Shown here: one piece after another, positions 23,903 to 41,112 of the stretch
How positions within the stretch are numbered: position 1 is the first letter of the stretch
Layout of the letters: every line of letters starts with the position of its first letter
The notes under the pieces: model-generated
The model's database searches: none
What the model saw: the letters and a program-made list of their open reading frames with translations, nothing else
What the model was told of the DNA's origin: nothing
Virus record (IMG/VR): IMGVR_UViG_3300020202_000143
Coordinates: 1-41,112 of that record
Length of the DNA stretch: 41,112 nucleotides
DNA from: a virus
Strand: one strand, 5' to 3'
Translations under genes and position numbers: made by a program

Positions 23903-23916
23903 GCCCCCAAGGGGGC
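23903..23916. repeat. GCCCCCAAGGGGGC palindrome before the capsid gene
   Basis: A perfect 6-base-arm palindrome lies in the 74-base gap between scaffold and capsid genes, 17 bases before the capsid ATG. There is no T-run. It might act in message processing or stability in front of the most highly expressed gene. Confidence 0.3.
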
Positions 23917-23960
23917 GCTGGGAACGCGACGTCATCCGACGTGGCATTCGAGGGTTGTGG

Positions 23961-24971: not shown

Positions 24972-25063
24972 CGGGTCGTCCTTTTCAGGTCTTGGTATGG
25001 CGCTCGTCTGAGCGATCCTCGGCAATGCGCCGCGGATGGGTTGGCGGGGCGTGCCCGCGAAAG

Positions 25064-25092
25064 TTGTTGCGTAGCGTTTTTCGTGCTACTCA
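25064..25092 (+). promoter_or_regulatory. Possible promoter of the DUF551-like cargo gene
   Basis: TTGTTG (25064-25069) and TACTCA (25087-25092) are 17 bases apart. The ATG lies six bases after the -10, so the message would be leaderless. It overlaps a GTAGC/GCTAC inverted repeat (25071-25089). The match to consensus is only moderate. Confidence 0.35.
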
Positions 25093-25098
25093 GCGCCT

Positions 25099-25449: not shown

Positions 25450-25729
25450 GGCTCATCCGCTCTATCTCATGGGCCTGCATCACGTTGCGTTCGGCAAGTC
25501 GCCCCGCCTCAATCGCAGAGTTGAGCCCGTTGGTGACGTTGCCCAGGACCTTCAGAGCGATGGCAAGAGCAGCGATCTTGTCGGCCCGGACCTTGGAATC
25601 CAGTTCGGTTGCGGCAATCTCCGCAATGCGAGCGAGATAGCCGTCCCTGGTCTCCTTCAGGATCGGACCAATGAACTCCTCGCACAGGGCGGCACGCTGC
25701 CCGCGGGCGGCGGTGCTTTCGTTGCTCAT
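25409..25729 (-). CDS. Hypothetical late-region protein
   Basis: 106 residues, almost wholly helical: RAALCEEFIGPILKETRDGY, LARIAEIAATELDSKVRADK, IAALAIALKVLGNVTNGLNS. It lies between portal and scaffold genes. Helical proteins here are often head-assembly accessories. The start overlaps the upstream gene by four bases. Confidence 0.6.
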   Translation of the reverse strand: MSNESTAARGQRAALCEEFIGPILKETRDGYLARIAEIAATELDSKVRADKIAALAIALKVLGNVTNGLNSAIEAGRLAERNVMQAHEIERMSPSRRHLFGLVPSR

Positions 25730-25920
25730 GCCGACTCCACCAGCTCACGAATGGCGGTCAACGCCGCCTCTTCGCTGTCCTTGCCCCTGACGGTTAGAAC
25801 GCTGTCAGGATGGATGCCCCTGGGGACCGGCTTGCCGTCCTCCAGATACTCGGCTGCGGCGGACCACTTGCCCTGATGGAGCGACCATGCGGGGTAGAAA
25901 ACCCAGACGCCGTTGCTCAC
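25726..25920 (-). CDS. Hypothetical small late protein
   Basis: 64 residues with GVWVFYPAWSLHQGKWSAAA and GIHPDSVLTVRGKDSEEAAL. Its start overlaps the portal stop by four bases and its stop overlaps the next start, so translation is chained. No family recognised. Confidence 0.55.
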   Translation of the reverse strand: MSNGVWVFYPAWSLHQGKWSAAAEYLEDGKPVPRGIHPDSVLTVRGKDSEEAALTAIRELVESA

Positions 25921-27932
25921 TTGTCGAGGTCCCCACCGGGCCGGTTCTGCTGAAGCTTGGCGTCCGCTTCATAGTCGCGGCGATCGGCTTCACGGCGGTC
26001 CCGCTCTGCCTGAACGGACAGCCGGCGCTCCTCCATCTGCAATTCCGCCTCGAACTTGGCCTGGGCAAGGTCCAGTTCGGCCTGCGCCTTCTCACGCGAC
26101 AGACGGGCCTGCTCCTCCGCTTCGTCGCGGGCGAGCTGGGCACGAAGCTGCGCCTCCTCGCGCATGGCCTCGATCTTCATCTGCTGGATCTGCTGCTCGC
26201 CCTGAAGCTTGGCGGCCTGCATCTGCGCCTCGGCCTCGATCTTCATCTGTTCGGGATCAGGCTGCGGCTCCTCCTCCTCCAGGGTTGAGGGGTCGATCAC
26301 ATAGTCCGACACGGCGCCAAGGCTGGTGTCCTTCACCACGCCAGCCACTGACTTGTAGATTTGCTCGTCTCCGATCAGCCGTGAGCCGTTGAGGACAAGC
26401 TCCCGCTGGATCTGAAGCAGGGTCATGCGGTTGGCGAGGCGCTGTTCCTTCCGGCCCGAACCCAGGCCGACGCGGATCACCACGTTCATGTCCTCCGGCC
26501 ACTGGCTCGGGTCGATCTCGCGGAACTCACCGTCCACCCGGAGCGACATCGGCCCACCGTAGCGGCTCATGAGCAGCAGCTTGAGGCGCATGAGGCGGGC
26601 CACCGCCTCGGCGAAGTTGCGGGCAATGTATTCCTCGATCTGCTGACCCTGGGCCTGCATCAGCGCCGTGCCCGTGGCCGTCTTGTTCAGAGCGTCCGCG
26701 TCCAGCCCCTGGTTCAGGCGAGTGATGCCCGTCCGGCTCTCCCGCTGGCCAATCATGAACTCGATCGCCTGGAACGCCGATCCGCTGACGTCGTTCTTGG
26801 GCTCCGGCACCGGAGCAACGCCCCGGAAGCGGACCAGGCCACCCGGAATGACCGTCAGGAGGTCATCAAAGGTGTTCTCCGTCACACCCGCCACATCGAC
26901 GTAGGTGCGCGGAGCGAGATTCCGATAGAGGCCGTCCATGGCAAGGCGCTGGAGAGCGGTGTTGATCCGCTGAATGTCCGTCACCTTGTCCGCCAGGCTG
27001 TGGCCGATCAGCCGTCCCGGCATGGGGAACGGGCAATAGACCACGAACGGCTGATAGTCGCACGGCTCCAGGCGAAGGATGCTCGTTCCCACCCGGTGAA
27101 TGCACAGGCGTTCGGCAATCCCGTCACCATCAGCGTCGAAGCGGACATATTCCTCGAGCAGCAGGACCTGGCGCATGGCTCCGGTCCGCTCATGGCCCAG
27201 GTAGTTCAGGCCACCATCCCGAGCGAGCGACAGAGTATCGGGAACAACGTCACCCTGAACGCTGTCCACGTCGTCCTGATCGAAGCCCATCTCGACCAGC
27301 TCGGAGAGCGTCTTGACGCTGGCATGGGCGACATAGGCCGCCTCGTCAGGGTCCCGTGCATCAGGGGAGATGCGAAACTCCTCCAGGGGCACCAGATAAT
27401 CCTTGAACTCCGGCGGCGCCTCCTGAAGCACCACGGCGCGGAACATCTCCATGCCGGTCTCCGGGTCCACGCCAAGGCTCTCGGCCTCGAACGCCCCGTC
27501 CGCTTCGGGATCCACCGACATGATCTCGGCACGCTTGCGGCGCATCTCCACCGACGCCTTGACCACGCCGATGGTCGAGATGTTGCCTTCTTTCAGCCAG
27601 TCGTGGAGCAGCCGATAGCCATTGCGGGAGAACTGCCGATGGATCGCGTCGGTCGCGTCATCGGCAACCTCCACCTGCTCCTCATCGTCCGGCTCGAACT
27701 CCACCACCCGATCGCCCGAGACGAAGGTGCGCAGGACCGACACGTTCATGTGGTCCACAACCTCGGCAACGTCCCGGCTCACGACCTTGGAGCAGCCGTC
27801 CACCTCGTCACCGTAATAGTCGCCGTTGTAGCTCCGCAGCGCAGTCTCGGCGCGGTCCAGCAAATCCTCATTGCGGGCACGGCTCTCCTCCTGCTGGAGG
27901 AAGGCCAGCAGCTCGGGGCTTACATCGATCAT
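25917..27932 (-). CDS. Portal protein
   Basis: 671 residues from ATG 27932. Typical of the large portal proteins of short-tailed phages: AETALRSYNGDYYGDE near the start, PFVVYCPFPMPGRLIGHSLA and DIQRINTALQRLAMDGLYRN in the stem and wing region, and FMIGQRESRTGITRLNQGLD. The last 110 residues are a very charged coiled coil (AEAQMQAAKLQGEQQIQQMK, REKAQAELDLAQAKF), like the barrel helices of P22 portal. It forms the dodecameric DNA gate. Confidence 0.9.
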   Translation of the reverse strand: MIDVSPELLAFLQQEESRARNEDLLDRAETALRSYNGDYYGDEVDGCSKVVSRDVAEVVDHMNVSVLRTFVSGDRVVEFEPDDEEQVEVADDATDAIHRQFSRNGYRLLHDWLKEGNISTIGVVKASVEMRRKRAEIMSVDPEADGAFEAESLGVDPETGMEMFRAVVLQEAPPEFKDYLVPLEEFRISPDARDPDEAAYVAHASVKTLSELVEMGFDQDDVDSVQGDVVPDTLSLARDGGLNYLGHERTGAMRQVLLLEEYVRFDADGDGIAERLCIHRVGTSILRLEPCDYQPFVVYCPFPMPGRLIGHSLADKVTDIQRINTALQRLAMDGLYRNLAPRTYVDVAGVTENTFDDLLTVIPGGLVRFRGVAPVPEPKNDVSGSAFQAIEFMIGQRESRTGITRLNQGLDADALNKTATGTALMQAQGQQIEEYIARNFAEAVARLMRLKLLLMSRYGGPMSLRVDGEFREIDPSQWPEDMNVVIRVGLGSGRKEQRLANRMTLLQIQRELVLNGSRLIGDEQIYKSVAGVVKDTSLGAVSDYVIDPSTLEEEEPQPDPEQMKIEAEAQMQAAKLQGEQQIQQMKIEAMREEAQLRAQLARDEAEEQARLSREKAQAELDLAQAKFEAELQMEERRLSVQAERDRREADRRDYEADAKLQQNRPGGDLDK

Positions 27933-28177
27933 ACGGGTTCCTTGACCATCTCGTGGCCGTTGCGGCACCAGGCTACATAGTCCGAGCGGGCATCAGCCCA
28001 GGCCGGGCTGGCCCAGCCGCGGATGCGCAGCCATTGAGCGTCCCCACATCCGGCCATCGGCGACCCACAACGGCAATGCGCGGGGTAATCCTCAGTGAGG
28101 CCCGCCTGACCTGCGTATTGGGGCGCATCGGCGTAGCCCGTGCGGCTCCAAGAGGCGTCGTATGTGCGGTATTTCAC
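27929..28177 (-). CDS. Small Cys-rich late protein
   Basis: 82 residues, no long hydrophobic run. It has CRCGSPMAGCGDAQW and a later WCRNGHEM, giving five Cys and a His that might form a zinc site. It lies between large terminase and portal, overlapping both by four bases. Family not recognised. Confidence 0.6.
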   Translation of the reverse strand: MKYRTYDASWSRTGYADAPQYAGQAGLTEDYPAHCRCGSPMAGCGDAQWLRIRGWASPAWADARSDYVAWCRNGHEMVKEPV

Positions 28178-29436
28178 ACGACCCCTCGCGTGACTCTGCT
28201 GTAATCCAGCTTTTGCATGGGCAGCCGGTTCTGATGCCCCACCGCGAAGTAGCGGAAGGCGTCGGCGTAGTGGCTCGTCCAGTCGTGCAGGGGATTGACC
28301 CTGAACTCCTGGCGCTTCTCGTCATATTCCCGGCGATACATGCGCAGGGCTTCGATGCCGTCCTTGCACTTGGCCTTGTCGAACCAGCACGTCGAAAGCA
28401 GCATGCGAACAGCCTGGATGCCGTCCGCCAACTTGATGTTGGGGCAGACCGTGGCCCTGATCCCCAATCCTTCGAGGACTTCCTTGCGGCTCTTGCCGGT
28501 CCCGAGTTCGCGGACCTCGACGTCGTGGGGCAGGTAATGCTCGCCCCACAGATAATCGCGCTTCTGAAGCTCCTTGGCGTACCAGTCGAGACCGACGCCC
28601 TCGCCCTTCAGAACGTCAATGACTCTAACTTCACGACCGGCACACTGAATGAACCAGATGACGGTAGAATCAGCGACTCCCAGGTCCCAAGCAGTATGGA
28701 CCGGAAGCCGCGGATCGTACGGGACGCTGGTGATCCGCTCGCTGGCCTCTGCATCGTTCATTTCCTTGGCGTAGTAGGCACCCCGGACCGCCGCCTCGAA
28801 CGAGCATTCATACTCCTGTGCGTACTCATCCTCGCTCATCATCCGGCGGGCGTCGGACAGCTCCTTGTCGTCCAGCAGCCCGGTCTCCGATGCCTTGAGC
28901 ATCAGCCGGGTCCAGTCAGGATCCCCCTCTGCATCCACCCAGATGCGGTGGAAGGTGTTCTTGCCCTTGGGCGTGCCGATGAAGCATGCCCAGCCCTTGC
29001 GATCGGAAAGAGCGGGGCGGATAACCTGCGTCCAGATGGTCGGGTCCATGTCCCCGAACTCATCCAGAACCACGCCGTCGAGGTAGATACCTCGCAAGCG
29101 GTCAGGATTATCCGCCCCATAGATGCGGATGCGCTTTCCCCCCGGAAGCTCGACCCACAACTCGCTCTCATTGACCTTCGGACCGAGGAAGGCCGTGTAT
29201 TCCTTCAAGTACGTCCAGGCGATGTCCTTGGCCTGGTTCAACTGCGGGGCGACATAGGCAAAGCGCGGGTTGGGCAAGTCGCACTTCAGCGCGCCCATGA
29301 TCAGCTCGTTGATGTTGCCGACCGTCTTGCCTGCCCGCCTGTGGCAGACACCGACGAACCAGCGTGTCTTCCTCTTGTGGAGCGGGAAGAACTGCTGCCG
29401 GCCCTCATAGGGCGAGTGCAGTTCAACGACCGTCAT
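28174..29436 (-). CDS. terL: Terminase large subunit
   Basis: 420 residues with the ATPase and nuclease of packaging motors. Walker A is CHRRAGKTVG (residues 31-40); Walker B is GVVLDEFGDMD; GWACFIGTPKGKNTF follows as the coupling motif. The RNase-H-like nuclease has Asp in AWDLGVADSTVIWF and a C-terminal HYADAFRYF. It cuts and pumps DNA into the procapsid through the portal. It overlaps the small subunit gene by 14 bases. Confidence 0.93.
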   Translation of the reverse strand: MTVVELHSPYEGRQQFFPLHKRKTRWFVGVCHRRAGKTVGNINELIMGALKCDLPNPRFAYVAPQLNQAKDIAWTYLKEYTAFLGPKVNESELWVELPGGKRIRIYGADNPDRLRGIYLDGVVLDEFGDMDPTIWTQVIRPALSDRKGWACFIGTPKGKNTFHRIWVDAEGDPDWTRLMLKASETGLLDDKELSDARRMMSEDEYAQEYECSFEAAVRGAYYAKEMNDAEASERITSVPYDPRLPVHTAWDLGVADSTVIWFIQCAGREVRVIDVLKGEGVGLDWYAKELQKRDYLWGEHYLPHDVEVRELGTGKSRKEVLEGLGIRATVCPNIKLADGIQAVRMLLSTCWFDKAKCKDGIEALRMYRREYDEKRQEFRVNPLHDWTSHYADAFRYFAVGHQNRLPMQKLDYSRVTRGVV

Positions 29437-29701
29437 TCAAACCCTTGAACACGGCAATGCCAATGGCCTGCCCGCCTTCCCCACTCAGTTGAAGCGGGAG
29501 CAGCTTCGGATAGATGGTCCCCCAGAACACGCGCTCGTTCTGCGCGTCCTCCTGCGCCCAATGGACGAGCCGATCCACACCCCCGAGCCTTTCGGCCGCG
29601 GCGGCAATGGCATCCTTGGCGATAAGGGTGGTCTTGTTCTTCGCCCCCCTGGGCCGTCCCTTGCCAGCATTGCCCCTATTTGAGCCTATTTTAGGCGGCA
29701 T
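29423..29701 (-). CDS. terS: Terminase small subunit (putative)
   Basis: 92 residues directly before terL. Basic Gly-rich start (KIGSNRGNAGKGRPRGAKNK), then a helical domain (KDAIAAAAERLGGVDRLVHW) and EDAQNERVFWGTIYPKLLPL. This arrangement fits the small DNA-recognition subunits that precede terL. It is short for the class, so DNA-binding and oligomer regions are minimal. Confidence 0.75.
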   Translation of the reverse strand: MPPKIGSNRGNAGKGRPRGAKNKTTLIAKDAIAAAAERLGGVDRLVHWAQEDAQNERVFWGTIYPKLLPLQLSGEGGQAIGIAVFKGLNDGR

Positions 29702-29791
29702 GGTCCTCGGCCTCTCGGCCCAACCAGAAATAATAGGTCATGGGTCTATCCCCCGTTTGCCGCTCCCGTGAGGGTGGGCGGTGCCAGGACG

Positions 29792-30076
29792 TTAAGCGGT
29801 GATGCCCGCGATCTTGTAAGCCGGGAACGCCTCGAGCCAGACACGCTCACCACTGCCGATGTAGGCAGAGGTTGCGGCGGCAGTCGGGTTGGCCGAGCTA
29901 TATTCGAAGCGGGCAGCCTCGGTCGCATAGATGGAGACTGTCTGCGCATTGGCAGGGGTCGCACCGGACTGTGCGGATACTCCCGACAAGGAGCGTGACT
30001 CCGAGGAGATGACGGCGCCGGCGACATTCTCATTGTCCTTGGCGCGTCCGGTCCAATAGGTGATCTCAAGAGGCAT
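29792..30076 (-). CDS. Hypothetical virion-type protein
   Basis: 94 residues: TYWTGRAKDNENVAGAVISS, then SVSIYATEAARFEYSSANPT-like beta text and GERVWLEAFPAYKIAGITA. Ser/Ala/Thr-rich and beta-type, probably structural. It follows the tailspike group and precedes the terminase genes; the 90 bases 29702-29791 between are empty. Confidence 0.55.
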   Translation of the reverse strand: MPLEITYWTGRAKDNENVAGAVISSESRSLSGVSAQSGATPANAQTVSIYATEAARFEYSSANPTAAATSAYIGSGERVWLEAFPAYKIAGITA

Positions 30077-30079
30077 GGC

Positions 30080-30295
30080 TTAATCCCAATCTGAAAGTGA
30101 GCTGGTGCCGGAGGTCCAGACAGGTTGCGTGGCTGACGGGCGGTTCCAGCCCGAGCCGGTGTTAAGCGCGATCGTCCATGCTCCGTCGGCAAGCGCAGAG
30201 GGTGCCCAGGACGGCCGCGGAAGAACTGCGACGTCCCATCCCCCACCCCCTGGAGTGTCGAACAAGGCAGGGTCGAACACGGCCTCGTCGAACAT
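30080..30295 (-). CDS. Small virion-type protein
   Basis: 71 residues, Pro/Trp/Gly/Asp-rich: FDEAVFDPALFDTPGGGGWD then SWAPSALADGAWTIAL and GSGWNRPSATQPVWTSG. The FDxxxFDP opening is common in short phage structural peptides. It touches the tailspike stop by one base. Function not known. Confidence 0.55.
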   Translation of the reverse strand: MFDEAVFDPALFDTPGGGGWDVAVLPRPSWAPSALADGAWTIALNTGSGWNRPSATQPVWTSGTSSLSDWD

Positions 30296-33200
30296 CAGAT
30301 GTCACTCTCGACGTAGCAGCCGACAATATCGATCCCGACCGCCAGTGCCGTCGCATTGTTGCTGCGCCACATGGCCATTCCGAGCAGGGTCGTTGAAGCA
30401 GGGAGCGCCGTTCCAGCAGTGCCCGTGAGGACACCCTCGGCCACTGCTCCAGTGCTGATGTTCTCCACCCGATAGGCGACGGAGTTGTTCTGGTCCGGCC
30501 GGGCGTAGAGCATCAGCTCATAGAGAGAACCGTTGGTGACGCTGCTGGACGCCGCCGGGAAGCTGGATCCGAGGTCGATGGCAGACTGAGCAGCACTGCC
30601 GCCGTAGACGATCTGAAGGTTGGCCGAGCCGTTCACCTGTGCCACGCCAACCAGGTTCGGCAGGGTGGCTGGGCTCGTGGCTGCGACCGGAGCGCCGGTT
30701 GCTGCTCGCATCCCCACGAACATATGGGCACCCGCGACCGTTGCCGCATCGGCTGTGGCCCACCTGAAGATGCCCAGGAACCCACCAGCAGCCGGAGTGC
30801 CGGCATCCCCAATGGTCCACTGTGTCAGGGCTGCCGAGCCGTTGTAGATACCCGCAGTGCCCCCGGCCGTGGCGACACTGACGTAGCCAAGCCGCCTGGC
30901 CCGAGTTGTCCGGTTGGTCGTGGCGACTGCCCGTGCGGTGGCTGTGCCCACGTTGGTTGGAGCGCCGCCACCCATGGGAGCAAGCGAGGTCGTGGCGTTG
31001 CCGATCGCCTGGGCGTGATAGACGCTGTTGCGGGCGATACTGGCCTGCAACGTGCAGAAAGTGCCGTCCTCCATCCGCCAGCGAGGCATGAGCCGGCCAC
31101 CGCCTGCCCCCATGCGCTGGGGGATGAGGGCCGTCTGGTCTGCTCCAGGGATGGTGCTGGTGCCGCTGTGGTCGAGCCGGAGGTTGCCGCTGGCGTCGAT
31201 GTCCACGCGGTCAGCACCGGCAATGGCGGTGGAATTGTTGAACTGGACGGATCGGTCCGCACCACCCGCCGCGGCTGTAGCGGTTGGCGCTGCCCAAGAG
31301 CCATCCGCCCGGAGGAAGTTGGCCGTGCCGCCGCCGGAAGCGGGTGCAAGGCCCTTGAGGGACGAAGTGAACGTGTTCGCGCCGGCAGTGAAGGCCGCAG
31401 CATCGGCAAGGGTGAGCAGCCCCCGGCCGTAGGTGGTCGTGGTCAGTGCCGCGATGGAGGTCAGGTCCGCGTCCAGCGGCTGATAACTCGCCAGTGCGGA
31501 GGTCGAGATCGCCGTGATCCGGCCCTTGCCGTCCACCGTCACAACCGGAATAGCTGTAGCGGAGCCAAAGCTGCCGACGTCGGAATTGACCGTGGCCAGT
31601 GTGGCGGTGATGCCGGCCGTTCCCGATCCGCTCACGTCACCCGAGAGGGTGATGGTCTGGTCGCCACTGTTGGTCCCGGTAAGCCCAAGGTCCGTCTTGA
31701 GCGTGGCGAGGGTCTGGGTCTCTGCCGCGCCTGTCCCGCTCGTCTTGCGGTAGAAGACTGTCCCGGTCGGGATGCTGGTGATGTCCGCAATGCCGTGGCT
31801 GTGGCTTGCGTTGGCCGGCGTGAAGGTCAGTGCCGTGGTGACGTCGCTCGAGGAGAGTGTGATCGCTCCCGTGCGCGTGTTGAACGAGGAGACGCCCCCA
31901 CCCCCAACGACCAGGCTTTCGATCTTGTCATAGACGGCATTCTTGGTCGGGACCTCGACCGATCCGTTCCAACCGGCCCCGTAAGCCTCATCCGTGACCT
32001 TGACGAAGCCGGTGACGGTAACGCCCGTGCTGGAGACGATGGCGACGTCGGAGCCGGCGGCGCGAAGGGCGATCCTGACCGAGCCGTTGAGGTTGAGCCC
32101 GTTGTTTCGCTGGCTCTGAAAATAGCCGTCGTCCTGCGAGACGCCACCGCTCCACGACCGGAAGGTCAGGGTGTTGGTATTGTTCGTGGTGTCGAAGGTC
32201 ATCCCGTGATCGACAGCGGGACCACCCGTCGGGCCAAAGCGCGAACCGTTGGTGCCGACGATGTTGCCGGTGACATAGGCCCCGGTGATCACGGCATTCG
32301 GAGCGTTCAGGAACGAGCCCGACATTGTGAAATTGCGGCCGATCGACAGGTCCTGAACCAGGAACATGCCGTTGCCGTTGGCATTGACGACGCCGCCGTA
32401 GAGCTGGCCATTGCCGTGGATCTGCGCCCCGTGCAGCCCGCCAAGGACAAGCGTTGCCCCGTCGTCTAGCTGGGAGGGGTTCTGGTCTCCCTCGGAGTAA
32501 CATCCGAGCAGGACGTTGTAGGCAGCGCCCGTGTCGAACTTATAGGCCCCACCCTCCACATAGGTGGTGCCGGAAACCCACTCGTCGAGACCGATCCCTG
32601 TCCCGCCGGGGCCGATATAGCCCCACCACTGATTGAATGCGGTCGTGCCGGTCGGAGGATTGGTTGAGGCGCCCGCAGCCTGTCCGTTGCGGACATAGTA
32701 GCGGTTGCCGTTCATACTGACACAGGTGCGCGTGGACCAGGCGTGCCAGCCATTCAGAGAGGTGTGGCAGGCGACATAGGTGTTGCCGAGGAACGAGCTG
32801 TCCCACACGCCCCACTGCCGGTTGCCCGAGCCGTTGAACATGGTGATGACCCAGGCATTGGCGTCCGCGCTGTCCACATAGAGACCGTTGCGGCACGCCT
32901 GGGCAGTGACGTTGGTGATGACCGCGCCGTTGCTGTTGCCGACCGGGAAACCCTCGGCAGAGCAGCGGCTGAAGATGCCATCACCCTCAAAACCGAACAC
33001 GGCGCAGTCGATGACCGAGGCGGCAGCCCGAAGATTGATGCCGTGGTTATCCGCGACCACAGACCCATAAGGCCCCTCCAGGTCAAAACCCTGGATCAGA
33101 GAATTGTCAGCCCCGAAGCCGATCGCCCGGGTGTCGGTTGCTTCCGTCGTGTCGTAACGCTGGACCCGAACACCCGTAACGCCAGTGGGGAAACGAAGCC

Positions 33201-33771
33201 GAGTCCCGTTCGCCGCGGCCGTCTTGCCGGTGCCGGCCCCCTGGAACTTCCACGTCCCGTCCGTGAGGTCGATCGTGGAAGCAAAGTCGAAGGTGCCGGC
33301 GGGAAACATGATATGCCCGGCATGCTTCTGCGAGGCGTTGCCGCTATTGACCGTGTGCAGGCGAAGCGTTGCGAACATCGCCAGCATCGCCGCGCTGTTC
33401 GCCGTTCCGTTGGTGGCGTTGTACGATCCCGTTGTCCGAACCAGGCCGAACCACATCGGGTCTGCGGCGCCGATGAACTGACGAACCCACGCCCCCGAGG
33501 CTCCGGTGGGAGCAGAGGCGGGAGCGACGTAGATCCCCTGGTGGAGATCGGCCGCAACCTTGGCGGACAGGTCGGCCGTGCTGAACGCGAACATGCCCTC
33601 TCGGCCCGGCTCGGTGAGCTGGCAGAGTTGGGAGGCCACGGTGGACATCGCCGCCATGACCGACCGCGACGTGGCGCCAAGCACCCGGTGGCTCTCGTTC
33701 CACGCGTTGACCGATGCCTGGCGGTTGGGATTGTTGGTCCCGGTCAGGACAGTGCCGTGGGTGATCCTCAC
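30295..33771 (-). CDS. Large tail fibre / tailspike with beta-helix
   Basis: 1158 residues, the longest gene. The N-terminal 130 residues should attach to the virion. Residues about 150-480 have the right-handed beta-helix look of pectate-lyase-like tailspikes (HAGHIMFPAGTFDFASTIDL, GVRVQRYDTTEATDTRAIGF, NSNGAVITNVTAQACRNGLY). The middle has fibre repeats (GGGGVSSFNTRTGAITLSSS, ADLTSIAALTTTTYGRG). The end is a beta-rich receptor-type domain. It probably binds and may cleave a host surface polysaccharide; the catalytic residues are not identifiable by eye. Confidence 0.82.
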   Translation of the reverse strand: MRITHGTVLTGTNNPNRQASVNAWNESHRVLGATSRSVMAAMSTVASQLCQLTEPGREGMFAFSTADLSAKVAADLHQGIYVAPASAPTGASGAWVRQFIGAADPMWFGLVRTTGSYNATNGTANSAAMLAMFATLRLHTVNSGNASQKHAGHIMFPAGTFDFASTIDLTDGTWKFQGAGTGKTAAANGTRLRFPTGVTGVRVQRYDTTEATDTRAIGFGADNSLIQGFDLEGPYGSVVADNHGINLRAAASVIDCAVFGFEGDGIFSRCSAEGFPVGNSNGAVITNVTAQACRNGLYVDSADANAWVITMFNGSGNRQWGVWDSSFLGNTYVACHTSLNGWHAWSTRTCVSMNGNRYYVRNGQAAGASTNPPTGTTAFNQWWGYIGPGGTGIGLDEWVSGTTYVEGGAYKFDTGAAYNVLLGCYSEGDQNPSQLDDGATLVLGGLHGAQIHGNGQLYGGVVNANGNGMFLVQDLSIGRNFTMSGSFLNAPNAVITGAYVTGNIVGTNGSRFGPTGGPAVDHGMTFDTTNNTNTLTFRSWSGGVSQDDGYFQSQRNNGLNLNGSVRIALRAAGSDVAIVSSTGVTVTGFVKVTDEAYGAGWNGSVEVPTKNAVYDKIESLVVGGGGVSSFNTRTGAITLSSSDVTTALTFTPANASHSHGIADITSIPTGTVFYRKTSGTGAAETQTLATLKTDLGLTGTNSGDQTITLSGDVSGSGTAGITATLATVNSDVGSFGSATAIPVVTVDGKGRITAISTSALASYQPLDADLTSIAALTTTTYGRGLLTLADAAAFTAGANTFTSSLKGLAPASGGGTANFLRADGSWAAPTATAAAGGADRSVQFNNSTAIAGADRVDIDASGNLRLDHSGTSTIPGADQTALIPQRMGAGGGRLMPRWRMEDGTFCTLQASIARNSVYHAQAIGNATTSLAPMGGGAPTNVGTATARAVATTNRTTRARRLGYVSVATAGGTAGIYNGSAALTQWTIGDAGTPAAGGFLGIFRWATADAATVAGAHMFVGMRAATGAPVAATSPATLPNLVGVAQVNGSANLQIVYGGSAAQSAIDLGSSFPAASSSVTNGSLYELMLYARPDQNNSVAYRVENISTGAVAEGVLTGTAGTALPASTTLLGMAMWRSNNATALAVGIDIVGCYVESDI

Positions 33772-34517
33772 AGGGTGCGCCCCTGGAGTGCGGCCATGTA
33801 GTTTTGAACCTGAAGCTTCTCCGCTGCGGAGAGCGTGCCGGACCGCTGGAACGCTCCGTAGAAGCGGATATTGGCGGTCGCGTAGCAGTTGGAGACGTCG
33901 GCGTTGCGGCAGGCGAGAAGAAGCCCGCCGGCAGAGGCCGATCCACCACTTCCAGTGAGGGCTGTGAGCAGATCAATCTGGAGGCTCGAGGAGGCGCCAT
34001 CCCAGCGTTCGGAGATCACGCCGTCTGATCCCACGGCAAGGTCGCTGGTGTTGATGTTGCTGCCGAATGTGGACTGCATGTAAATGGCCGGCGATGTGCC
34101 ATCCTGCCCGAGGGCCAGGACCACGCCATTATCATAGTCCGAGAAGATGTTGTCCGGGCTGGTCCAACTGATCTGCCGGACCGAGGAGATGCGGTCCATT
34201 GGCTGGGTCATGGCGAACGCGGCGCGCATGCCATCATCGGTGCCGTCGAACTCAAGATAGTAGAGGGCGCCGGACTGCCGAAGAATAGGACGGCATGCAT
34301 CGACCGGAGAAGTCAGGTGATTGCCGTTGCCGGACTTGTCCAACATCTTGCCGACCGGGCCATTGACCACCGCCGCCGTCGTTCCCGCAATATCGGAATA
34401 GAGGGTCGAGAGATCGGAAGGCTGGTAGAAAGCCCCACCAACGCCACCTGCAAACAGGGAAGCGGGGCTGAATGACCCGCCCCTGCGGGACGATCGGAGA
34501 CCGAGGCCAAGCTTCAT
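33768..34517 (-). CDS. Fibre protein with LamG/concanavalin-like domain
   Basis: 249 residues from ATG 34517. After a Gly/Ser-rich start, DKSGNGNHLTSPVDACRPIL then YLEFDGTDDGMRAAFAM is the typical opening of phage LamG/concanavalin-like lectin domains; the end reads NIRFYGAFQRSGTLSAAEKL then QNYMAALQG. Probably a virion surface lectin. It overlaps the tailspike start by four bases, and the two are likely made together. Confidence 0.72.
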   Translation of the reverse strand: MKLGLGLRSSRRGGSFSPASLFAGGVGGAFYQPSDLSTLYSDIAGTTAAVVNGPVGKMLDKSGNGNHLTSPVDACRPILRQSGALYYLEFDGTDDGMRAAFAMTQPMDRISSVRQISWTSPDNIFSDYDNGVVLALGQDGTSPAIYMQSTFGSNINTSDLAVGSDGVISERWDGASSSLQIDLLTALTGSGGSASAGGLLLACRNADVSNCYATANIRFYGAFQRSGTLSAAEKLQVQNYMAALQGRTL

Positions 34518-34642
34518 CGCCCTGCCTCCTCTCTCATCAGGTGAATGCCGACCCACGCAAACTTGGCAGCCAGTGCAGCGACATGCGCCGCGACCACCGC
34601 CACTGCTGCCCCACCCGTGAACAGGGCGAGGCCGCGTTTCAT
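34514..34642 (-). CDS. 42-residue membrane peptide
   Basis: From ATG 34642: MKRGLALFTGGAAVAVVAAH then VAALAAKFAWVGIHLMREEA. One long hydrophobic segment with Lys/Arg start and charged end. Both ends overlap neighbours by four bases. It could be an inner-membrane or virion peptide; no function is recognised. Confidence 0.5.
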   Translation of the reverse strand: MKRGLALFTGGAAVAVVAAHVAALAAKFAWVGIHLMREEAGR

Positions 34643-35049
34643 TCGTCGAAACCCATGGAGCGGTTGAACACGTCCACCGCCTCGCTTTGGGTCACGATGT
34701 CCCGCCGGATCACTTCCGCCACCCAGGCAGGAAAGATCGACATCGGAACTGGAGACTCTTCCTCGTCGTAACGCCACCCCGTGGTGACTTTGCCGTTCGC
34801 AAACAGTCCAACCATCACATAGCCGACAAGCGGAACGTCATTGCTCCACTCGACAATCTGGCGGGCGTTGCGAAGAATATCCCCGCGCCAGTCGTCCTCA
34901 TGGAGAGGAGTAAGCCCCTCGATCACGCGGACGTCGGCACCCCCGGACTTCATCCGAACCCGGCTGATCCGGGCGGCGAACTCCGTCACTTCTTTCCGCT
35001 GAGATTGGCGGGCAGCTCGGGCAAGGTGGCGCTCAAGGGATCCAGCCAC
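34639..35049 (-). CDS. Hypothetical late protein
   Basis: 136 residues from GTG 35049: a helical basic start (SLERHLARAARQSQRKEVTE), then beta text (GADVRVIEGLTPLHEDDWRG, VPLVGYVMVGLFANGKVTTG) and a helical end. Soluble. It overlaps the gene upstream by 64 bases. No family recognised. Confidence 0.5.
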   Translation of the reverse strand: MAGSLERHLARAARQSQRKEVTEFAARISRVRMKSGGADVRVIEGLTPLHEDDWRGDILRNARQIVEWSNDVPLVGYVMVGLFANGKVTTGWRYDEEESPVPMSIFPAWVAEVIRRDIVTQSEAVDVFNRSMGFDE

Positions 35050-35216
35050 TCCAGGTAGGACGCCGCCACCCCCAGCGTGTCCTGGGCCGCATCCCCAAGC
35101 TTCACCTTGCCCTTCGCCTCCCCCGTGAGGATTGCCGCACAGGCCAGCGCCACCACGCGATAGCCGCCATCATCCCCCCAGGCGTCTGCGAGAATGTCCG
35201 ACAGGCTCTGGGGCAT
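34986..35216 (-). CDS. First late gene, hypothetical
   Basis: 76 residues from ATG 35216, chosen because GGAGG stands seven bases before it. It is helical: QSLSDILADAWGDDGGYRVV then ALACAAILTGEAKGKVKLGD. It is the first gene after the late promoter and its leader terminator (35446-35353). No family recognised. Confidence 0.55.
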   Translation of the reverse strand: MPQSLSDILADAWGDDGGYRVVALACAAILTGEAKGKVKLGDAAQDTLGVAASYLEWLDPLSATLPELPANLSGKK

Positions 35217-35352
35217 GGCGCCCTCCATGATTTCTTCCCCGGCACGCCAGAGCCAACCGCGGTGTGCAGCATAGCTTGCCTTTTGGTGCGTTCGGATGGG
35301 GCCGGGGAACCGCGCCATTCGGGCTTATGATCCGAGGGTCCGGCGCAGATAC

Positions 35353-35381
35353 AAAAAAGCCCCGCCAACGGGTGGCAGGGC
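35353..35381 (-). terminator. Leader terminator directly after the late promoter
   Basis: On the minus strand GCCCTGCCA and TGGCGGGGC (within 35381-35359) form a stem with a short loop, followed by six T (35358-35353). It ends about 58 bases after the predicted start of the late promoter. Late genes would not be reached unless the polymerase is modified to pass it. Confidence 0.75.
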
Positions 35382-35417
35382 ATTCAATGCGCTCCAGGCG
35401 CAGTAATGAGCATTGAC

Positions 35418-35446
35418 TGCATACCAAAACTCAGCGGGGTTGTCAA
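35418..35446 (-). promoter_or_regulatory. Strong late promoter
   Basis: On the minus strand TTGACA (35446-35441, perfect -35) and TATGCA (35423-35418) are separated by exactly 17 bases. No gene lies between 35475 and 35216, so this is the evident start of the late transcript. No operator motif of the 927/2331 type is present, so it is not directly repressed; control is probably by the terminator downstream. Confidence 0.75.
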
Positions 35447-35474
35447 GCCGCGATTGCTGACCGCGGCCAACGCG

Positions 35475-36161
35475 CTAGGCCGCCAAGTGGTTCCGCCTCA
35501 TCGGGAGTGTCGCGTCAACGAGCTGGCACATGCCGCGGATCGCCGCGCGGTGGAGGCTCCGATCATGTTCGTCGGGAAAGCGCATGGCGTTGGGCACCTT
35601 GCCCCGCTTCAGCATGGCCTCGTCCACCAGAGCCTGCGCCCACGGCACAACCTGCTGTCCGGCAAAGTCCCCGATCAGATTGTCCACGATGAGGGACAGG
35701 AGAGCGGCCTTCTCCATTGCTCCAAGGGACTCGTCCATGGCGTCGAACCGGCGGTCGGCGGCGGTATAGCGAACCTCCTTCACGCCCTTGTCCATGCGCT
35801 CATAGGAGCTAGTCCGGGTCGCGCAGCAGCGTAGGAGCTGGGCATAGTGATGCCCCCACTCCCTCGCCCGGTCACGCATCTCGAGGGGATCATGGCCGTG
35901 CCCGTCCAGCAGCCCGAGCGCATGGAGCTGGCCAACACCGTCGCAGATGTCCTGGTCGATCGTGCCCCCGAAGTCCTTGCGGCTCGTGTCGCTCTCGTCG
36001 GGCCGGAGCCATGCGAACAAGCGCCGCAATGACTGGACCCGCATGTTGGGCTGGCCCAGGTCGTTGGCGGCCAGACCGCGCGCCGCTGCATCCGCCTCCT
36101 TCTGGAGCCGGCGCCGTTCCGCCCGTGACCGGCGGCTGTTCTTGTCCTTCGGTCTTGCCAT
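35475..36161 (-). CDS. Basic, Arg-rich protein: candidate late antiterminator
   Basis: 228 residues. The N-terminal 30 residues are strongly basic (RPKDKNSRRSRAERRRLQKE), like the arginine-rich RNA-binding start of N-type antiterminators. The rest is helical (REWGHHYAQLLRCCATRTSS, MDESLGAMEKAALLSLIVDN) with no enzyme motif. Its place as the last early gene, directly before a promoter-plus-terminator, is the place of lambda Q. The regulatory role is inference; no family is recognised. GGGGAAG precedes the ATG. Confidence 0.5.
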   Translation of the reverse strand: MARPKDKNSRRSRAERRRLQKEADAAARGLAANDLGQPNMRVQSLRRLFAWLRPDESDTSRKDFGGTIDQDICDGVGQLHALGLLDGHGHDPLEMRDRAREWGHHYAQLLRCCATRTSSYERMDKGVKEVRYTAADRRFDAMDESLGAMEKAALLSLIVDNLIGDFAGQQVVPWAQALVDEAMLKRGKVPNAMRFPDEHDRSLHRAAIRGMCQLVDATLPMRRNHLAA

Positions 36162-36173
36162 CTTCCCCTCCCC

Positions 36174-37115
36174 TTACGCAGCGATACTCATCTGGTCCGC
36201 CCAATCGGTCCCGAGGCGCGGCGGGATCTCCACCGTCACACGCTCGACCCATGGACATGTTGTGGCGATGCGATGGGCGCAGGCATAAGCCGCCGCCTGT
36301 CCGCCGAACTTGCAATCCGCATCCCCGAACACCGTGACGTCCACCACCTCCTCGGGCGGGCGCCACTTGGCGAGCATGGCGGTGTTGATTGCCGCCCAGG
36401 TGGGGACGTTGAACCTCTCCCCGGCCGCCAGTGCCGTCTCGATCCCCTCTGCAATGCCAAGCCGAGGACCGATCGGGGCGAGGCGAACCGCGCACCCATC
36501 CACCAGGTCGCCCGGCATCAGGGCGCGTGGGTTCTCCATCGGCGCCTTCTGAGCCTGCGGAGTGAGGAACGTGCGGTGGAGGGTGACACCCCTGCCGTCC
36601 GGTCCCTTCACCGAGGCGAGCATGGCGAGTTGGAAACCAGGAGCGTTCGGGACCGGGCAGAGCTGGGAGAAGCGCAGGGCGTCACGGTTCTGCGGAAGCG
36701 GACAGCCTCGCCCCAGGAGGTACCGGTGAACCAATCCCCCGGCCTCGACCGGCTCTGCCTCATTCCACAGACGGATACAGGCCTGCAACTTCTCCTCGGG
36801 CGTCCGCTCGCGCTTGACCGGATCCCTCGACAGAGGCCGATCGCCGCCAAGCACCTGGTCCACTTCCCGGGCGGCCTCGGCAAAGGTCCATCCCTTCCAC
36901 TTCTCGAGGAGCTTCCACCCCGTCCCACCGGAGCCGCAGCCCCGGCAGATGTAGGAACCGACGCCATTCTCATTGTCGAAGCTGAAGCGGTCCTTACCGC
37001 CGCACATCGGGCAAGCGGTGTTCTTCCCCGTCAGTGCCGCAGCGGGAAAGCCCAGGTGAAGGAGAATGCCCTTCCACTTGCCCTGGGCAAGGTCGTGGGT
37101 GCGCTGGCGGATCAT
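36174..37115 (-). CDS. DNA primase (zinc finger plus Toprim)
   Basis: 313 residues. The N-terminal zinc finger is CPMCGGKDRFSFDN then YICRGCGSGGTG (residues about 35-65). The C-terminal Toprim domain shows IAEGIETALAAGE (catalytic Glu) and VFGDADCKFGGQAAAY (DxD-type). Closest in layout to P4-alpha/DUF7146-type phage primases but without a helicase domain; the helicase is encoded by the adjoining gene (37112). It makes primers for phage replication. Start overlaps the helicase stop by four bases. Confidence 0.85.
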   Translation of the reverse strand: MIRQRTHDLAQGKWKGILLHLGFPAAALTGKNTACPMCGGKDRFSFDNENGVGSYICRGCGSGGTGWKLLEKWKGWTFAEAAREVDQVLGGDRPLSRDPVKRERTPEEKLQACIRLWNEAEPVEAGGLVHRYLLGRGCPLPQNRDALRFSQLCPVPNAPGFQLAMLASVKGPDGRGVTLHRTFLTPQAQKAPMENPRALMPGDLVDGCAVRLAPIGPRLGIAEGIETALAAGERFNVPTWAAINTAMLAKWRPPEEVVDVTVFGDADCKFGGQAAAYACAHRIATTCPWVERVTVEIPPRLGTDWADQMSIAA

Positions 37116-38635
37116 GCGCGGCGCCTCCGGGCAAAAGCAATCCGGCGCGAATGCTCATACGCCATGAACGCCGAGTCCGGAGCCATTGGTTCGTCACTGA
37201 GGCCCCGAGGCCAAACCCCGAACTTGGACTTGTAAAGCGCCTTGGCGAGCCGACCGCCCTTCCCGCGTGCCTGATCGACATGGCGGGCCATCGACCAGAA
37301 GGTCTGCTTATCCACGACATTGGCTTTGGGCGCCTTGGCGGGGCTGATCTCCACCAACTCGCCCTCTTCCACCTCGACGCCGGCCTGGCGTGTCGGCTCG
37401 AACCCGCATCCGGGGCAGCGATGGACCTTGGGCGGCTTGAGGAGGCCGCAGGAGCCGCACGCCTTGGGCACCGGCTCACCGCGTTCCTTGCGGGTCTCCG
37501 GCTTCTTCTCGCGGCCTGAAAGAAGCTTGTCGTGGCGGATCTGGGTGACGAAGCCGAGCCGAGCGTGATTGTCGGCATGATCGAGGATCAGACAGTGGCT
37601 CTTGCCCGGAGCCGTCCGGAGGCCACGGCCGATCATCTGGACGAACAGCATCTCGCTCCGGGTGGGCCGAGCAAGGACCACGCAGCGGACGTCCGCATCG
37701 ACTCCGGTGGTCAGTGTCCCGACATTGACGATCCCCGCCATGTTGCCGGCGGCCATCTCGCGGAACAGATATTCCCGCTCCACGAGGTCCACATGAGCAT
37801 CGCAATAGCCCATCCGAACACCGGAGGCGGCGAACTGCTCGACCAACTGCGACGCATGCGCCCGGTTAACCGCGAACACGAGTGTGGGAAGCCCCCTGCC
37901 CTTCTCGAGCCAGGTGGACACGATGTCAGCCGTCAGCCCGCCCATCGCTTCTGCTGCACCGTCCTCGGCATAGTCGCCATTGCGGATCTTCACGCCGCTC
38001 ATGTCCGGGTGGGACGGGGCGAAGACGCGGAATGGCGAGAGCAGCCCTCGCTCGATCAGCTCGTCCATCTGCACCGGGACCAGAAGGGTCTCCCACTGGT
38101 CGGCCATGCCGCGGGCCCAGGGCGTTGCAGACAGTCCGATGAAGACCTTGCGGGGCTCGTCCTCCATCCAGGACCGAACGGCGGTGTGCTGGAGGTGGCA
38201 CTCGTCCACCACGATCACCTCCGCGTCCGGGCGAGCGCGGCGGCCCAGGGTCTGGACGGAGACGACCTGGACGGGCTGCCGATGGTCCGTGAGGATATGG
38301 TTGCCCTGCATGACCCCGATGGCGTCGATCCCCTCCGAACCGAAGGCATGGACGGTCTGGTTGACGAGGGAGATGGCAGGAACGGTGAACGCCACACGGT
38401 TGCCCTTGGTGAGGGAGCCATTGACGATCTCCGCAGCTAGGCGTGTCTTGCCGGCCCCGGTGGGCATTGCGAGGACGACGCGGCGAACGCCCGAGCGCAG
38501 CGCCTGGCGCAGCATGCCCATGGCGCGGAGCTGGTGTTCCCGCAGTGGCTTGGGTGAAGGCGGCTTGGCGAAGAGGTCGGGGTTCACTCGCATTCCCCCC
38601 GGCACCTCTCGCGTGCGCACGGTCTCAGTCACCAT
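37112..38635 (-). CDS. SF2 (DEAD/DEAH-type) DNA helicase
   Basis: 507 residues from ATG 38635 (AGGAG seven bases before). Motifs in order: REHQLRAMGM (Q-like), MPTGAGKTRLAAE (I), VIVVDECH (II), FIGLSATPWARG (III), then the second RecA-like domain with MIGRGLRTAPGKSH (VI). After it comes a zinc ribbon (CGSCGLLKPPKVHRCPGCGF). ResIII/RecG-type helicases with this layout serve as phage replicative helicases. Works with the primase encoded next. Confidence 0.88.
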   Translation of the reverse strand: MVTETVRTREVPGGMRVNPDLFAKPPSPKPLREHQLRAMGMLRQALRSGVRRVVLAMPTGAGKTRLAAEIVNGSLTKGNRVAFTVPAISLVNQTVHAFGSEGIDAIGVMQGNHILTDHRQPVQVVSVQTLGRRARPDAEVIVVDECHLQHTAVRSWMEDEPRKVFIGLSATPWARGMADQWETLLVPVQMDELIERGLLSPFRVFAPSHPDMSGVKIRNGDYAEDGAAEAMGGLTADIVSTWLEKGRGLPTLVFAVNRAHASQLVEQFAASGVRMGYCDAHVDLVEREYLFREMAAGNMAGIVNVGTLTTGVDADVRCVVLARPTRSEMLFVQMIGRGLRTAPGKSHCLILDHADNHARLGFVTQIRHDKLLSGREKKPETRKERGEPVPKACGSCGLLKPPKVHRCPGCGFEPTRQAGVEVEEGELVEISPAKAPKANVVDKQTFWSMARHVDQARGKGGRLAKALYKSKFGVWPRGLSDEPMAPDSAFMAYEHSRRIAFARRRRA

Positions 38636-38848
38636 GGTAACTCCTGAAGGTTCAACCCTTCGGACTGGCAAGACGGGGACCAAGGACAGACAATCCCCCG
38701 CCGCAGCGAGGGAAAGCCCGGCCCGGTCAGTCTCGCCACGGAGGGCTGCATCGCGGACGCTTCCAGACGGACGGTCACTGGAAACTCGGCAGTCGCTTTC
38801 GAGGGTCTCCATCCCCCCGCCGATCCCCGCTCTGCCTTTCGGACTCGG

Positions 38849-38929
38849 GTTGTTGCTGTGATCGGACCCCTTCTGGTAACAACGGGTCGTCGCTGTGCCG
38901 CCAGAGTTTCGAGCCAACCCGGCACAGCG
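38849..38929. repeat. Two hairpins in the gap before the helicase gene
   Basis: In the gap 38636-38957 no convincing gene is seen. It holds CGCTGTGCCG (38891-38900) pairing with CGGCACAGCG (38920-38929), a 10-base stem with 19-base loop. GTTGTT (38849-38854) pairs with AACAAC (38878-38883). The decamer CTCCGTGGCG also occurs twice on the minus strand. It may be a structured leader, an origin element or a protein site. Confidence 0.4.
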
Positions 38930-38957
38930 GCACTTCGCCACGGAGGCGCGCGGGCGC

Positions 38958-39167
38958 TCACCGGGCCTCTCCTGCGTAGAGAAGCGCGTTCATCGCCTCG
39001 ACCAGCGACACGCCGGCCTCATCGGCATGGCGACAGATGGCGTTCGCTAAGGCGGTCCGGAGCCGTTCGCTGCCGGCGATCGCATCCGCCACGGCGGCAG
39101 ACCGCGCAAAGCAGTCGTTAAGCGGGTCCACACCGGCCCGGCGATAGACAGGGGCGCGTGTCTTCAT
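38958..39167 (-). CDS. Hypothetical small early protein
   Basis: 69 residues, helical: DPLNDCFARSAAVADAIAGS then RLRTALANAICRHADEAGVS. Overlaps the upstream stop by four bases. Last gene before the 322-base gap that precedes the helicase gene. No family recognised. Confidence 0.55.
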   Translation of the reverse strand: MKTRAPVYRRAGVDPLNDCFARSAAVADAIAGSERLRTALANAICRHADEAGVSLVEAMNALLYAGEAR

Positions 39168-39355
39168 TCGTCCCTGACCTCCGGCGCCGGGGTCAGGCTC
39201 AAGCGGCTCATCTGCCGCTCATGCTCGGCTGCGAAGTCCAGGGGATCGAACCCCTGATAGTGGCAGACGCTTTCGACCTTGATGGTGCGGAGCGAGGTGT
39301 TGCCGTGCCCGATGAAGGTGGCGACGCAATTGCGCAGGCGATTGTCCTGGGTCAT
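39164..39355 (-). CDS. Hypothetical small early protein
   Basis: 63 residues from ATG 39355, which overlaps the nuclease stop (ATGA). Text includes RLRNCVATFIGHGNTSLRTI and VESVCHYQGFDPLDFAAEHE. Soluble; no family recognised. Confidence 0.5.
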   Translation of the reverse strand: MTQDNRLRNCVATFIGHGNTSLRTIKVESVCHYQGFDPLDFAAEHERQMSRLSLTPAPEVRDE

Positions 39356-39780
39356 TGGCCGGCCTCCGGGTGGTAGGCGTCGGCCGTGCGGATCACGCGG
39401 GGATCGACACCGTTCCACGGCGCGCCCCACTCACGAAGGCGCATGTAAGCCTCGTCCACCGAGTGAACGACGGCGTTGTTCCAGCCCAGGCGGTCATAGG
39501 TCTCGGCCATGGCGACCTGCTCGGGCGAGATACGGAAGCCCTTGGACCGCTTCACCTCGAGGCTGCCGCCCTTCCCCGGTGCCCACAGCAGGAGGAGGTC
39601 ATAAAAACCGACCTTGAGCCCATCGCCCTTGAGCGCGCCCATCTGCTTGAACCGTGCCGTCCTGTCTCCGGCGAGGTGAGCCCCGTTCGGAATGGCCGTG
39701 CAGAACACCTGCGGGAAACAGGTTCCGATCATGCGGAGAATGGCGCGCTGCTCCTGGCGCTCGGTCGGGATCGCCTTCAT
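39352..39780 (-). CDS. VRR-NUC domain nuclease
   Basis: 142 residues with the VRR-NUC pattern: EQRAILRMIG, CTAIPNGAHLAGDRTARFKQ, GALKGDGLKVGFYDLLLLWA, then GGSLEVKRSKGFRISPEQVA. The Asp (FYDLLL) and ExK (LEVKR) form the PD-(D/E)xK active site. In phages these are small structure-specific nucleases used in replication or Holliday-junction processing. Overlaps both neighbours by four bases. Confidence 0.85.
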   Translation of the reverse strand: MKAIPTERQEQRAILRMIGTCFPQVFCTAIPNGAHLAGDRTARFKQMGALKGDGLKVGFYDLLLLWAPGKGGSLEVKRSKGFRISPEQVAMAETYDRLGWNNAVVHSVDEAYMRLREWGAPWNGVDPRVIRTADAYHPEAGQ

Positions 39781-40079
39781 GCGGCACCCGTGAGGCTTGC
39801 GCGGATCTTGCCGACCTCATGGGCAAGGACGGGATCGGCACCCAGGCGCTGCTCTACCTGCCAGCACGCCCATTTGACTGTCGAGTGATCCCGCCCGCCG
39901 AAGTAATAGCCAACGTGGCTGTAGGACTTCCCGGTCAGCTCTCGGGCCAGATACATTGCGATCTGCCGCGGACGCGCCACCGACCGCGCACGGCATGTCG
40001 TGCGCATGTCCCTGGCGCGCAGCCACCACACTTCTGCGACGGCGGCCTGGATCGCGGCGATTGTGACCCCCCGGCCCAT
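39777..40079 (-). CDS. Stand-alone DnaA domain IV-like DNA-binding protein
   Basis: 100 residues. Residues 35-70 match the DnaA C-terminal DNA-binding domain: ARPRQIAMYLARELTGKSYS then HVGYYFGGRDHSTV. This is the helix-turn-helix with the DnaA signature, followed by the last helix. There is no AAA+ part. It could bind DnaA-box-like sites in a phage origin, or compete with host DnaA. It lies among replication genes. Overlaps the nuclease gene by four bases. Confidence 0.85.
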   Translation of the reverse strand: MGRGVTIAAIQAAVAEVWWLRARDMRTTCRARSVARPRQIAMYLARELTGKSYSHVGYYFGGRDHSTVKWACWQVEQRLGADPVLAHEVGKIRASLTGAA

Positions 40080-40175
40080 TTACGGTCTCGGGCTCAGCGC
40101 CAGCAGCACGCCGTCGATAATCGTCACTTCGGGTTCCGTCAGAAGCGCGATGTAGAAGACGATGGCGGGGTTCAT
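40080..40175 (-). CDS. 31-residue peptide between methyltransferase and DnaA-like genes
   Basis: ATG 40175 overlaps the methyltransferase stop by four bases, and TAA (40082-40080) is directly followed by the next ATG. It reads MNPAIVFYIALLTEPEVTII and continues for 11 residues. The exact fit in the overlapping chain is the support. Function unknown. Confidence 0.45.
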   Translation of the reverse strand: MNPAIVFYIALLTEPEVTIIDGVLLALSPRP

Positions 40176-41112
40176 GCGGCCTCACCCATCAGAACAGCTC
40201 CGCTTGCTGCGCCGGCTTCTGCGAGGCGAGCGCGGAGACGAAGGAAGGCATACGCCGCCACCACAGGGTCCACGCCGTTTCCTGTCGCTCGAAGCCGCTC
40301 AACCCGGTGGGCCATCGCATCAATGCCTCGACGAAGATGGGATTCAGCTTCCTCTTGGCTGAGTGCTGGTTGGAGTTCGGGCCATCGGTCGAGCACGTCC
40401 CGCCAGCGAGGGTCGCTGGGTTCGGGAATGACGGTGGGAGGAAGGAGTTCGCCTGCCCTTCTAAGGTCGGCCGCTCCCGCTCTGGATCGCCCTGGTCCCG
40501 CGTGTAGCAGCCCTGCACGGTTCTCGGCGCCATCCACTGATCCGCCTGCATCGACAGCGCCGTCCCGCCCTGCCCGTATCGCTTCGTCCGCGTGCCCGTG
40601 TCGTCCGCAACCGGCGCCATCCACTCGCTCACCTCGTGATGAAGGCTGATCCCCTTGCGTGAGCCCCGCGCTCCAGCGTCGATCGTCATCTGCCGTAGGT
40701 GCGAGCCATCCCGATGGTTCTGCGTGTCCGGCGCAGGCCATGATGAACAGTCGCTCGCGCCGCATGGTGTTTCCGGTCTCGGCCGAGCTGAATATTCCTG
40801 CCGCAACGCGGTAGCCCAGTCGCTCCAGTGCCGGGACGATGGCGGCAAGCTGCCCATCGGCGTTCCCCGGCACGTTCTCGCGGAAGACAAGATGAGGCCG
40901 GCACTCTGCGGCGACCCGAACGACTTCGGGAGCGAGGAACCGCTCTCCGCTTGCTCCGGCGCGCTGCCCGGCAACGCTGTTGTCCTGGCAGGGGTCTCCC
41001 GAAGCGAGGATATGAACGACGCCACGCCACGGTCGAGCGTCGAAGGTGAGCATGTCACTCCAGACAGGAGCCGGATGAAACCACCCTGCTTCCATCGACG
41101 CGACCAGGCTCG
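40172..41112 (-). CDS. DNA cytosine-C5 methyltransferase, main part (N-terminus at 34-1)
   Basis: 312 residues are visible, open through the right edge (SLVASMEAGWFHPAPVW). C5-methyltransferase motifs in order: ASGDPCQDNSVAG (motif IV, catalytic Cys), FRENVPG (VI), RRERLFIM (VIII), and at the end ERLRATGNGVDPVVAAYAF (X). Motif I is missing only because the window ends. It probably protects phage DNA from host restriction. The region after motif VIII is also open in the +1 frame (to 40189), where it carries text typical of other C5-methyltransferase ends; see findings. Confidence 0.8.
   Translation of the reverse strand, partial: SLVASMEAGWFHPAPVWSDMLTFDARPWRGVVHILASGDPCQDNSVAGQRAGASGERFLAPEVVRVAAECRPHLVFRENVPGNADGQLAAIVPALERLGYRVAAGIFSSAETGNTMRRERLFIMACAGHAEPSGWLAPTADDDRRWSAGLTQGDQPSSRGERVDGAGCGRHGHADEAIRAGRDGAVDAGGSVDGAENRAGLLHAGPGRSRAGAADLRRAGELLPPTVIPEPSDPRWRDVLDRWPELQPALSQEEAESHLRRGIDAMAHRVERLRATGNGVDPVVAAYAFLRLRARLAEAGAASGAVLMGEAA

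Follow-up and report, generated by a model that had tools for sequence, protein, structure and literature searches.

The window, i.e. the whole stretch of 41,112 nucleotides of viral DNA analysed here, carries an early operon on the minus strand that holds a DnaA-domain protein, a helicase and a primase, and ends with gene 36161–35475. Downstream, and likewise on the minus strand, come the late genes, among them that for terminase. The DnaA-domain protein (39777–40079, minus strand) is a stand-alone DnaA domain IV protein (PF08299), which is also present in several relatives and, by eye, in locus L077. Additionally, an HTH repressor-like gene (881–1627) and recombination-like genes were read from the sequences, and these point to a temperate phage with a lambda-like layout. 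The features found from gene 36161–35475 to the first late gene are collected in Table 1.

Table 1. Features of the late-gene control region of the window
Feature	Position	Strand	Basis
Candidate late antiterminator (228 aa), encoded at the end of the early minus-strand operon	35475–36161	−	Homologs; position
Inverted repeat GCCGCG-N9-CGCGGC, candidate protein-binding site	35447–35467	−	Sequence; just upstream of −35
Late promoter TTGACA-17-TATGCA with extended −10 TG	35418–35446	−	Sequence; conserved in 36 loci
−10-like element AATGCT at predicted start site	35409–35414	−	xAxxxT-N5..7-TGYG conservation in leaders
TGCG, match to the T-3 G-2 Y-1 G+1 pause motif	35399–35402	−	Leader comparison and composite scan
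Leader hairpin 1, TGCGC-CTGGA-GCGCA	35388–35402	−	Leader pairing comparison; fold
Leader intrinsic terminator, 9-bp stem and T6	35353–35381	−	Terminator scan; comparison of leaders
Leader hairpin 3, CTGCGCC...GGCGCGG	35310–35348	−	Minimum-energy fold
RNA domain of 75 nt with closing stem TTCCCCGGC/GCCGGGGAA, immediately before first late gene	35235–35309	−	Predicted stem
First late gene, ATG 35216 with GGAGG upstream	34986–35216	−	Sequence; RNA-domain position

A preliminary description of this DNA had proposed a TTGACA-17-TATGCA promoter beyond the last early gene, and we could read both boxes, with a spacer of exactly 17 nt, on the minus strand (−35 at 35446–35441, −10 at 35423–35418). The gene stops 28 nt upstream of the −35, and a TG one base upstream of TATGCA provides an extended −10; as the −10 is without its last T, a standard promoter scanner misses this promoter. 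With a predicted start at ∼35411, the free transcript would be ∼59 nt long, agreeing with the ∼58 bases originally suggested.

In order to compare this arrangement with others, relatives were required. Searches of annotated phages and genome contigs with the 36161–35475 protein yielded no homolog, and a single-sequence scan of viral contigs gave no confirmed one. Relatives of the terminase were therefore found first (80 loci), and homologs were then sought upstream of it. Thirteen terminase-neighbour loci (window excluded) encode homologs of 25–48 % identity upstream of the terminase, whilst a profile scan gave 35 loci with homologs and an iterated HMM over the fetched loci 52 matches, redundant copies included. 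The late-switch arrangement as such occurs in about forty related phage sequences, whose regulator proteins differ in look.

In these relatives the promoters have a TTGAC-type −35, 17 nt and a TA-type −10, usually with TG before the −10, and in each locus the promoter comes after the gene, in some cases with small extra ORFs in between. Most of the −35 anchors were picked by eye; independent of these is a scan, on both strands, with a composite pattern (TTGAC-type −35, 17, −10, −10-like, TGYG). This pattern has a single match in the whole 41-kb window, at 35446, compared with an average of 0.05 in 60 shuffled windows. Across 1.23 Mb of loci nearly all matches, that in L046 left aside, are at the late promoter, with one clear exception (L077:2071).

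The last two parts of this pattern describe an element that the preliminary description had missed, namely a −10-like xAxxxT at the start site followed by N5–7-TGYG, as in sigma-dependent pauses, for which the consensus is T-3 G-2 Y-1 G+1. It is present in 27 of 39 non-redundant leaders, against a mean of 1.1 (maximum 6) in dinucleotide shuffles. Published work holds that no Q protein acts without both a promoter site and a −10-like sequence in the initially transcribed region, and that AlpA needs CACGAT at −1 to +5, its A and T included (PMC6606751, PMC9371919). Judged by its sequence, the initially transcribed region of the window holds a −10-like element typical of a predicted sigma-dependent pause, and this start-site element argues for a mechanism of the Q type.

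Following the promoter is the strong hairpin with six T that had been noticed earlier, which we located as a GC hairpin (35381–35359) and TTTTTT (35358–35353) on the minus strand. Its stem has nine pairs, seven of them GC, with a loop of 5, making it the strongest of 15 terminator-like sites in positions 22000–41112. Amongst the relatives, 20 of 36 leaders show a terminator no more than 130 nt past the start, where shuffles and random segments each give 0.7. Counts across the loci are not independent, the loci being related by descent. At the same threshold the interval from gene to promoter, which reaches 575 nt, contains a terminator in only one of 36 cases, and this difference indicates that the terminator belongs to the late promoter rather than to the early operon. 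With a putative intrinsic terminator in the leader that follows its late promoter, the window shows a second feature of Q-type systems.

Several leaders carry further elements. A tRNA-Thr gene (anticodon CGT) was found in three of them (L002:2573–2646, L082:2363–2436 and L106:1210–1283), where it stands shortly after the pause element, at the position of the terminator in other phages. The leaders of L086, L087 and L098 contain an insertion starting GGCAATTATAT, which in L098 lies within the terminator stem-loop. In L003 and L104 an HNH-type endonuclease-like ORF begins at the leader ATG; a lambda-like boxB (GAAGA loop) considered in L003 was dropped, as it falls within the HNH endonuclease reading frame.

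Beyond promoter, pause element and terminator, the leader RNA appears to be structured on both sides of the terminator. The short hairpin TGCGC-N5-GCGCA is fully paired in 11 leaders, with two pairs covarying through changes on both sides, and in others TGCGCC opens the terminator stem. For hairpin 3, a counterpart GCGCC...GGCGC is visible by eye in relatives. The RNA domain beyond the terminator measures 62–88 nt in relatives, with a closing stem of 8–11 bp, and lies right before the first late gene; a stem of at least 8 bp at a span of 60–92 is present in 32 of 44 leaders, where shuffles give 4.4 and other segments 2.7. The sequence of the closing stem differs between phages with the pairing kept, and neither the leader nor this domain has a match in Rfam; the domain is a candidate new structured 5′ UTR. 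Furthermore, the listed ORF start of the first late gene, 35318, falls inside the structured leader and, because the RNA domain spans 35309–35235, the true start is probably the ATG at 35216.

Of 34 loci, 20 have inverted repeats close to the −35 with arms of at least 6 bp, against 3.75 in shuffles. Their position varies among loci, and the copy in the window is upstream of the −35 rather than between −35 and −10.

The protein encoded by 36161–35475 does have the arginine-rich N-terminus ascribed to it, reading MARPKDKNSRRSRAERRRLQKE. In most relatives the basic segment is KRGRPRK, which is AT-hook-like in look, and Pfam AT_hook gives a best E-value of 0.24, in one of 13 members. The family (alignments A1/A3) combines this basic N-terminus with a conserved helical core, and the better of its AlphaFold models is helical (pLDDT 78, pTM 0.68). 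The protein had been said to match no Q or N family by eye, and this holds for database searches also: in Pfam and PHROG no family was found at a meaningful E-value for any member of the alignment, no sequence homology to Q or N emerged, and a fold search of the PDB with the predicted structure returned no match. Within the literature collection searched, neither this protein family nor the leader had been described before.

In related-terminase loci that encode no homolog of 36161–35475 the leader is retained, and other small proteins are encoded immediately before it. Five of these proteins (L012, L016, L019, L022 and L023; termed group B) make up a second family (alignment A5), small and basic, that precedes the same leader, whilst those of L017, L018 and L020 are singletons. 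No Pfam match was obtained among the three group B members scanned (L012, L016 and L023), and the profile–profile comparison of this group with the 36161–35475 family was not significant. In L077, the slot is occupied by a DUF6456 protein (PF20057; E-value 6.6 × 10−8, passing the cut-off), downstream of which there is a consensus-like promoter and then a hairpin, TGCGCCCAGAGCGCA. GafZ, from the gene transfer agent (GTA) of Caulobacter, acts as an antiterminator and loads between −35 and −10, where it needs a palindrome (PMC11150451), and its homolog GafA of Rhodobacter is annotated as DUF6456 (PMC9638019). Moreover, Roseobacter phage RDJL Phi 1 encodes a DUF6456 protein with a weak match to PHROG 79, 'anti-termination protein Q-like' (E-value 0.0012).

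We make no claim that the 36161–35475 family is homologous to DUF6456, as hmmscan gave no match and profile–profile comparison by hhalign was not significant. With Foldseek, the RDJL Phi 1 protein ranked second for the first model (E-value 0.16, probability 0.80) and sixth for the better model (E-value 0.67, probability 0.72), neither being significant. As a result of these comparisons, the family is best described as presumably working like DUF6456 proteins, at the same place, rather than as a member of them. The likeness to GafZ and to the C-terminal part of GafA (DUF6456), an antiterminator of alphaproteobacterial GTAs, is twofold: a relative, L077, carries such a protein in the slot in front of a leader of this kind, and GafZ, which loads at a promoter palindrome, reads through terminators of a virion operon. 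The differences are that the 36161–35475 protein matches DUF6456 neither by HMM nor by profile–profile comparison, and that the known terminator of GafZ comes after the first gene and not in a short leader. The N-domain of the GTA activator GafA is DnaA-like, as is the 39777–40079 protein, and the DnaA-domain protein and the slot protein could parallel the GafY/GafZ pair. The earlier suggestion of a new antiterminator thus gains plausibility from the position in the slot and from the DUF6456 parallel in L077, but finds no backing in sequence homology to any antiterminator; position and weak fold similarity make the role plausible.

The preliminary description had compared the locus to lambda pR′, and this logic is well supported, since relatives repeat the set of promoter, pause element and leader terminator after the same gene. 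The cis architecture of the late switch is strongly supported by these sequence comparisons, and we consider it likely that the locus is a Q-type (lambda pR′-like) late-gene switch with a new antiterminator family. RNA polymerase would start constitutively at ∼35411, the sigma subunit would rebind AATGCT, the −10-like element of the start site, and near 35400 polymerase would pause; without the regulator, it would escape and stop at the leader terminator (35353). For the 36161–35475 protein we infer DNA binding, loading and read-through: once supplied by the early operon it would bind promoter DNA, possibly at the inverted repeat or the −35/−10 spacer, and load on the paused polymerase, which would read through the leader terminator into a late operon of roughly 23 kb (terminase, portal, capsid and tail). 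In lambda Q/pR′/tR′, 21Q, 82Q and AlpA of Pseudomonas aeruginosa the last early gene likewise adjoins the late promoter, and these systems share with the window the −10-like element at the start site, the leader terminator and the whole late operon downstream. In contrast to the Q and AlpA families, the protein has no sequence similarity to them and matched no solved structure and, unlike the lambda pR′ leader, that of the window continues past the terminator with one more hairpin and a structured 5′ UTR. Counted against the Q-type reading are the weak −10 of the window (TATGCA), the 16 of 36 leaders in which no terminator or a weak one was recognised, the leaders that carry a tRNA-Thr, an insertion or an endonuclease ORF, and the leader of L077, which has no obvious terminator.

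The main competitor, which we regard as unlikely, accepts the leader as a real pause/terminator switch and makes the 36161–35475 protein an ordinary promoter activator or a replication or packaging protein whose place at the end of the early operon is fortuitous, with another phage or host factor responsible for read-through. The protein is indeed assigned by position only, a palindrome CCGCG-N8..10-CGCGG lies at or upstream of the −35, as expected of an activator site, and the separate DnaA-domain gene 39777–40079 could itself be an activator (cf. the DnaA-like domain of GafA/GafY). Phages that have the same leader and no homolog, however, hold another small protein in exactly this slot, as one would expect of the place where the leader's regulator is encoded; an activator is also less needed, as most −35s are near consensus.

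Antitermination of the N type, in which the Arg-rich segment would bind TGCGC-N5-GCGCA as boxB with an upstream GCTC as boxA, is improbable. The basic N-terminus and the covarying hairpin of 5 bp with a 5-nt loop do recall lambda N/nut; yet a search across leaders for a nut site (boxA, then GNRA-like boxB) found the hairpin present with loops of CYANM, and no boxA core in many. GCTC occurs in only part of the leaders, whereas A2 and T6 of the −10-like element are kept, and in one subgroup (L035, L043, L112 and L113) the terminator stem itself replaces the short hairpin. Position is tied to the start site, and the protein is much larger than N. The resemblance to N-type antiterminators drawn in the preliminary description was therefore not upheld, as the leader has no nut site in the lambda sense, its hairpins have no GNRA-like loop, and the start site is where the conserved element lies, as Q-type systems require.

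It is more doubtful still that the short transcript is itself the product, as a small regulatory RNA or an attenuator (leader peptide or riboswitch) for the late genes. A terminated RNA of ∼59 nt is predicted and some leaders carry an in-frame ATG (e.g. MLITAPGAH in the window), but the features conserved at the −35 and the start site are at the DNA level and Rfam gave no match; the leader-peptide version was dropped, since by inspection the ATG is missing from most leaders. It is hardly credible that the promoter is a chance match and that the hairpin, ∼95 nt past the last early gene, does no more than end the early operon: in relatives up to 575 nt and extra ORFs part gene from promoter with terminators still after the promoter, and chance would not be expected to produce the composite promoter motif.

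Detailed knowledge of Q-type antitermination comes mostly from lambdoid phages and AlpA. The same cis logic appears to operate in a large group of uncultured phages, with regulator proteins that are unnamed in any library. The leader offers a way to find the late regulators of such phages, and its short templates suit direct in vitro tests. Moreover, the regulator slot of one relative holds the protein family that controls GTAs in alphaproteobacteria. We tentatively suggest, as a possibility somewhat short of even, that several antiterminator families, interchangeable and either unrelated or extremely diverged, DUF6456 included, act on one conserved phage late leader (sigma pause, terminator and structured 5′ UTR), with GafZ-dependent GTA antitermination being a domesticated copy; if true, this would mean a phage origin for antitermination in GTAs.
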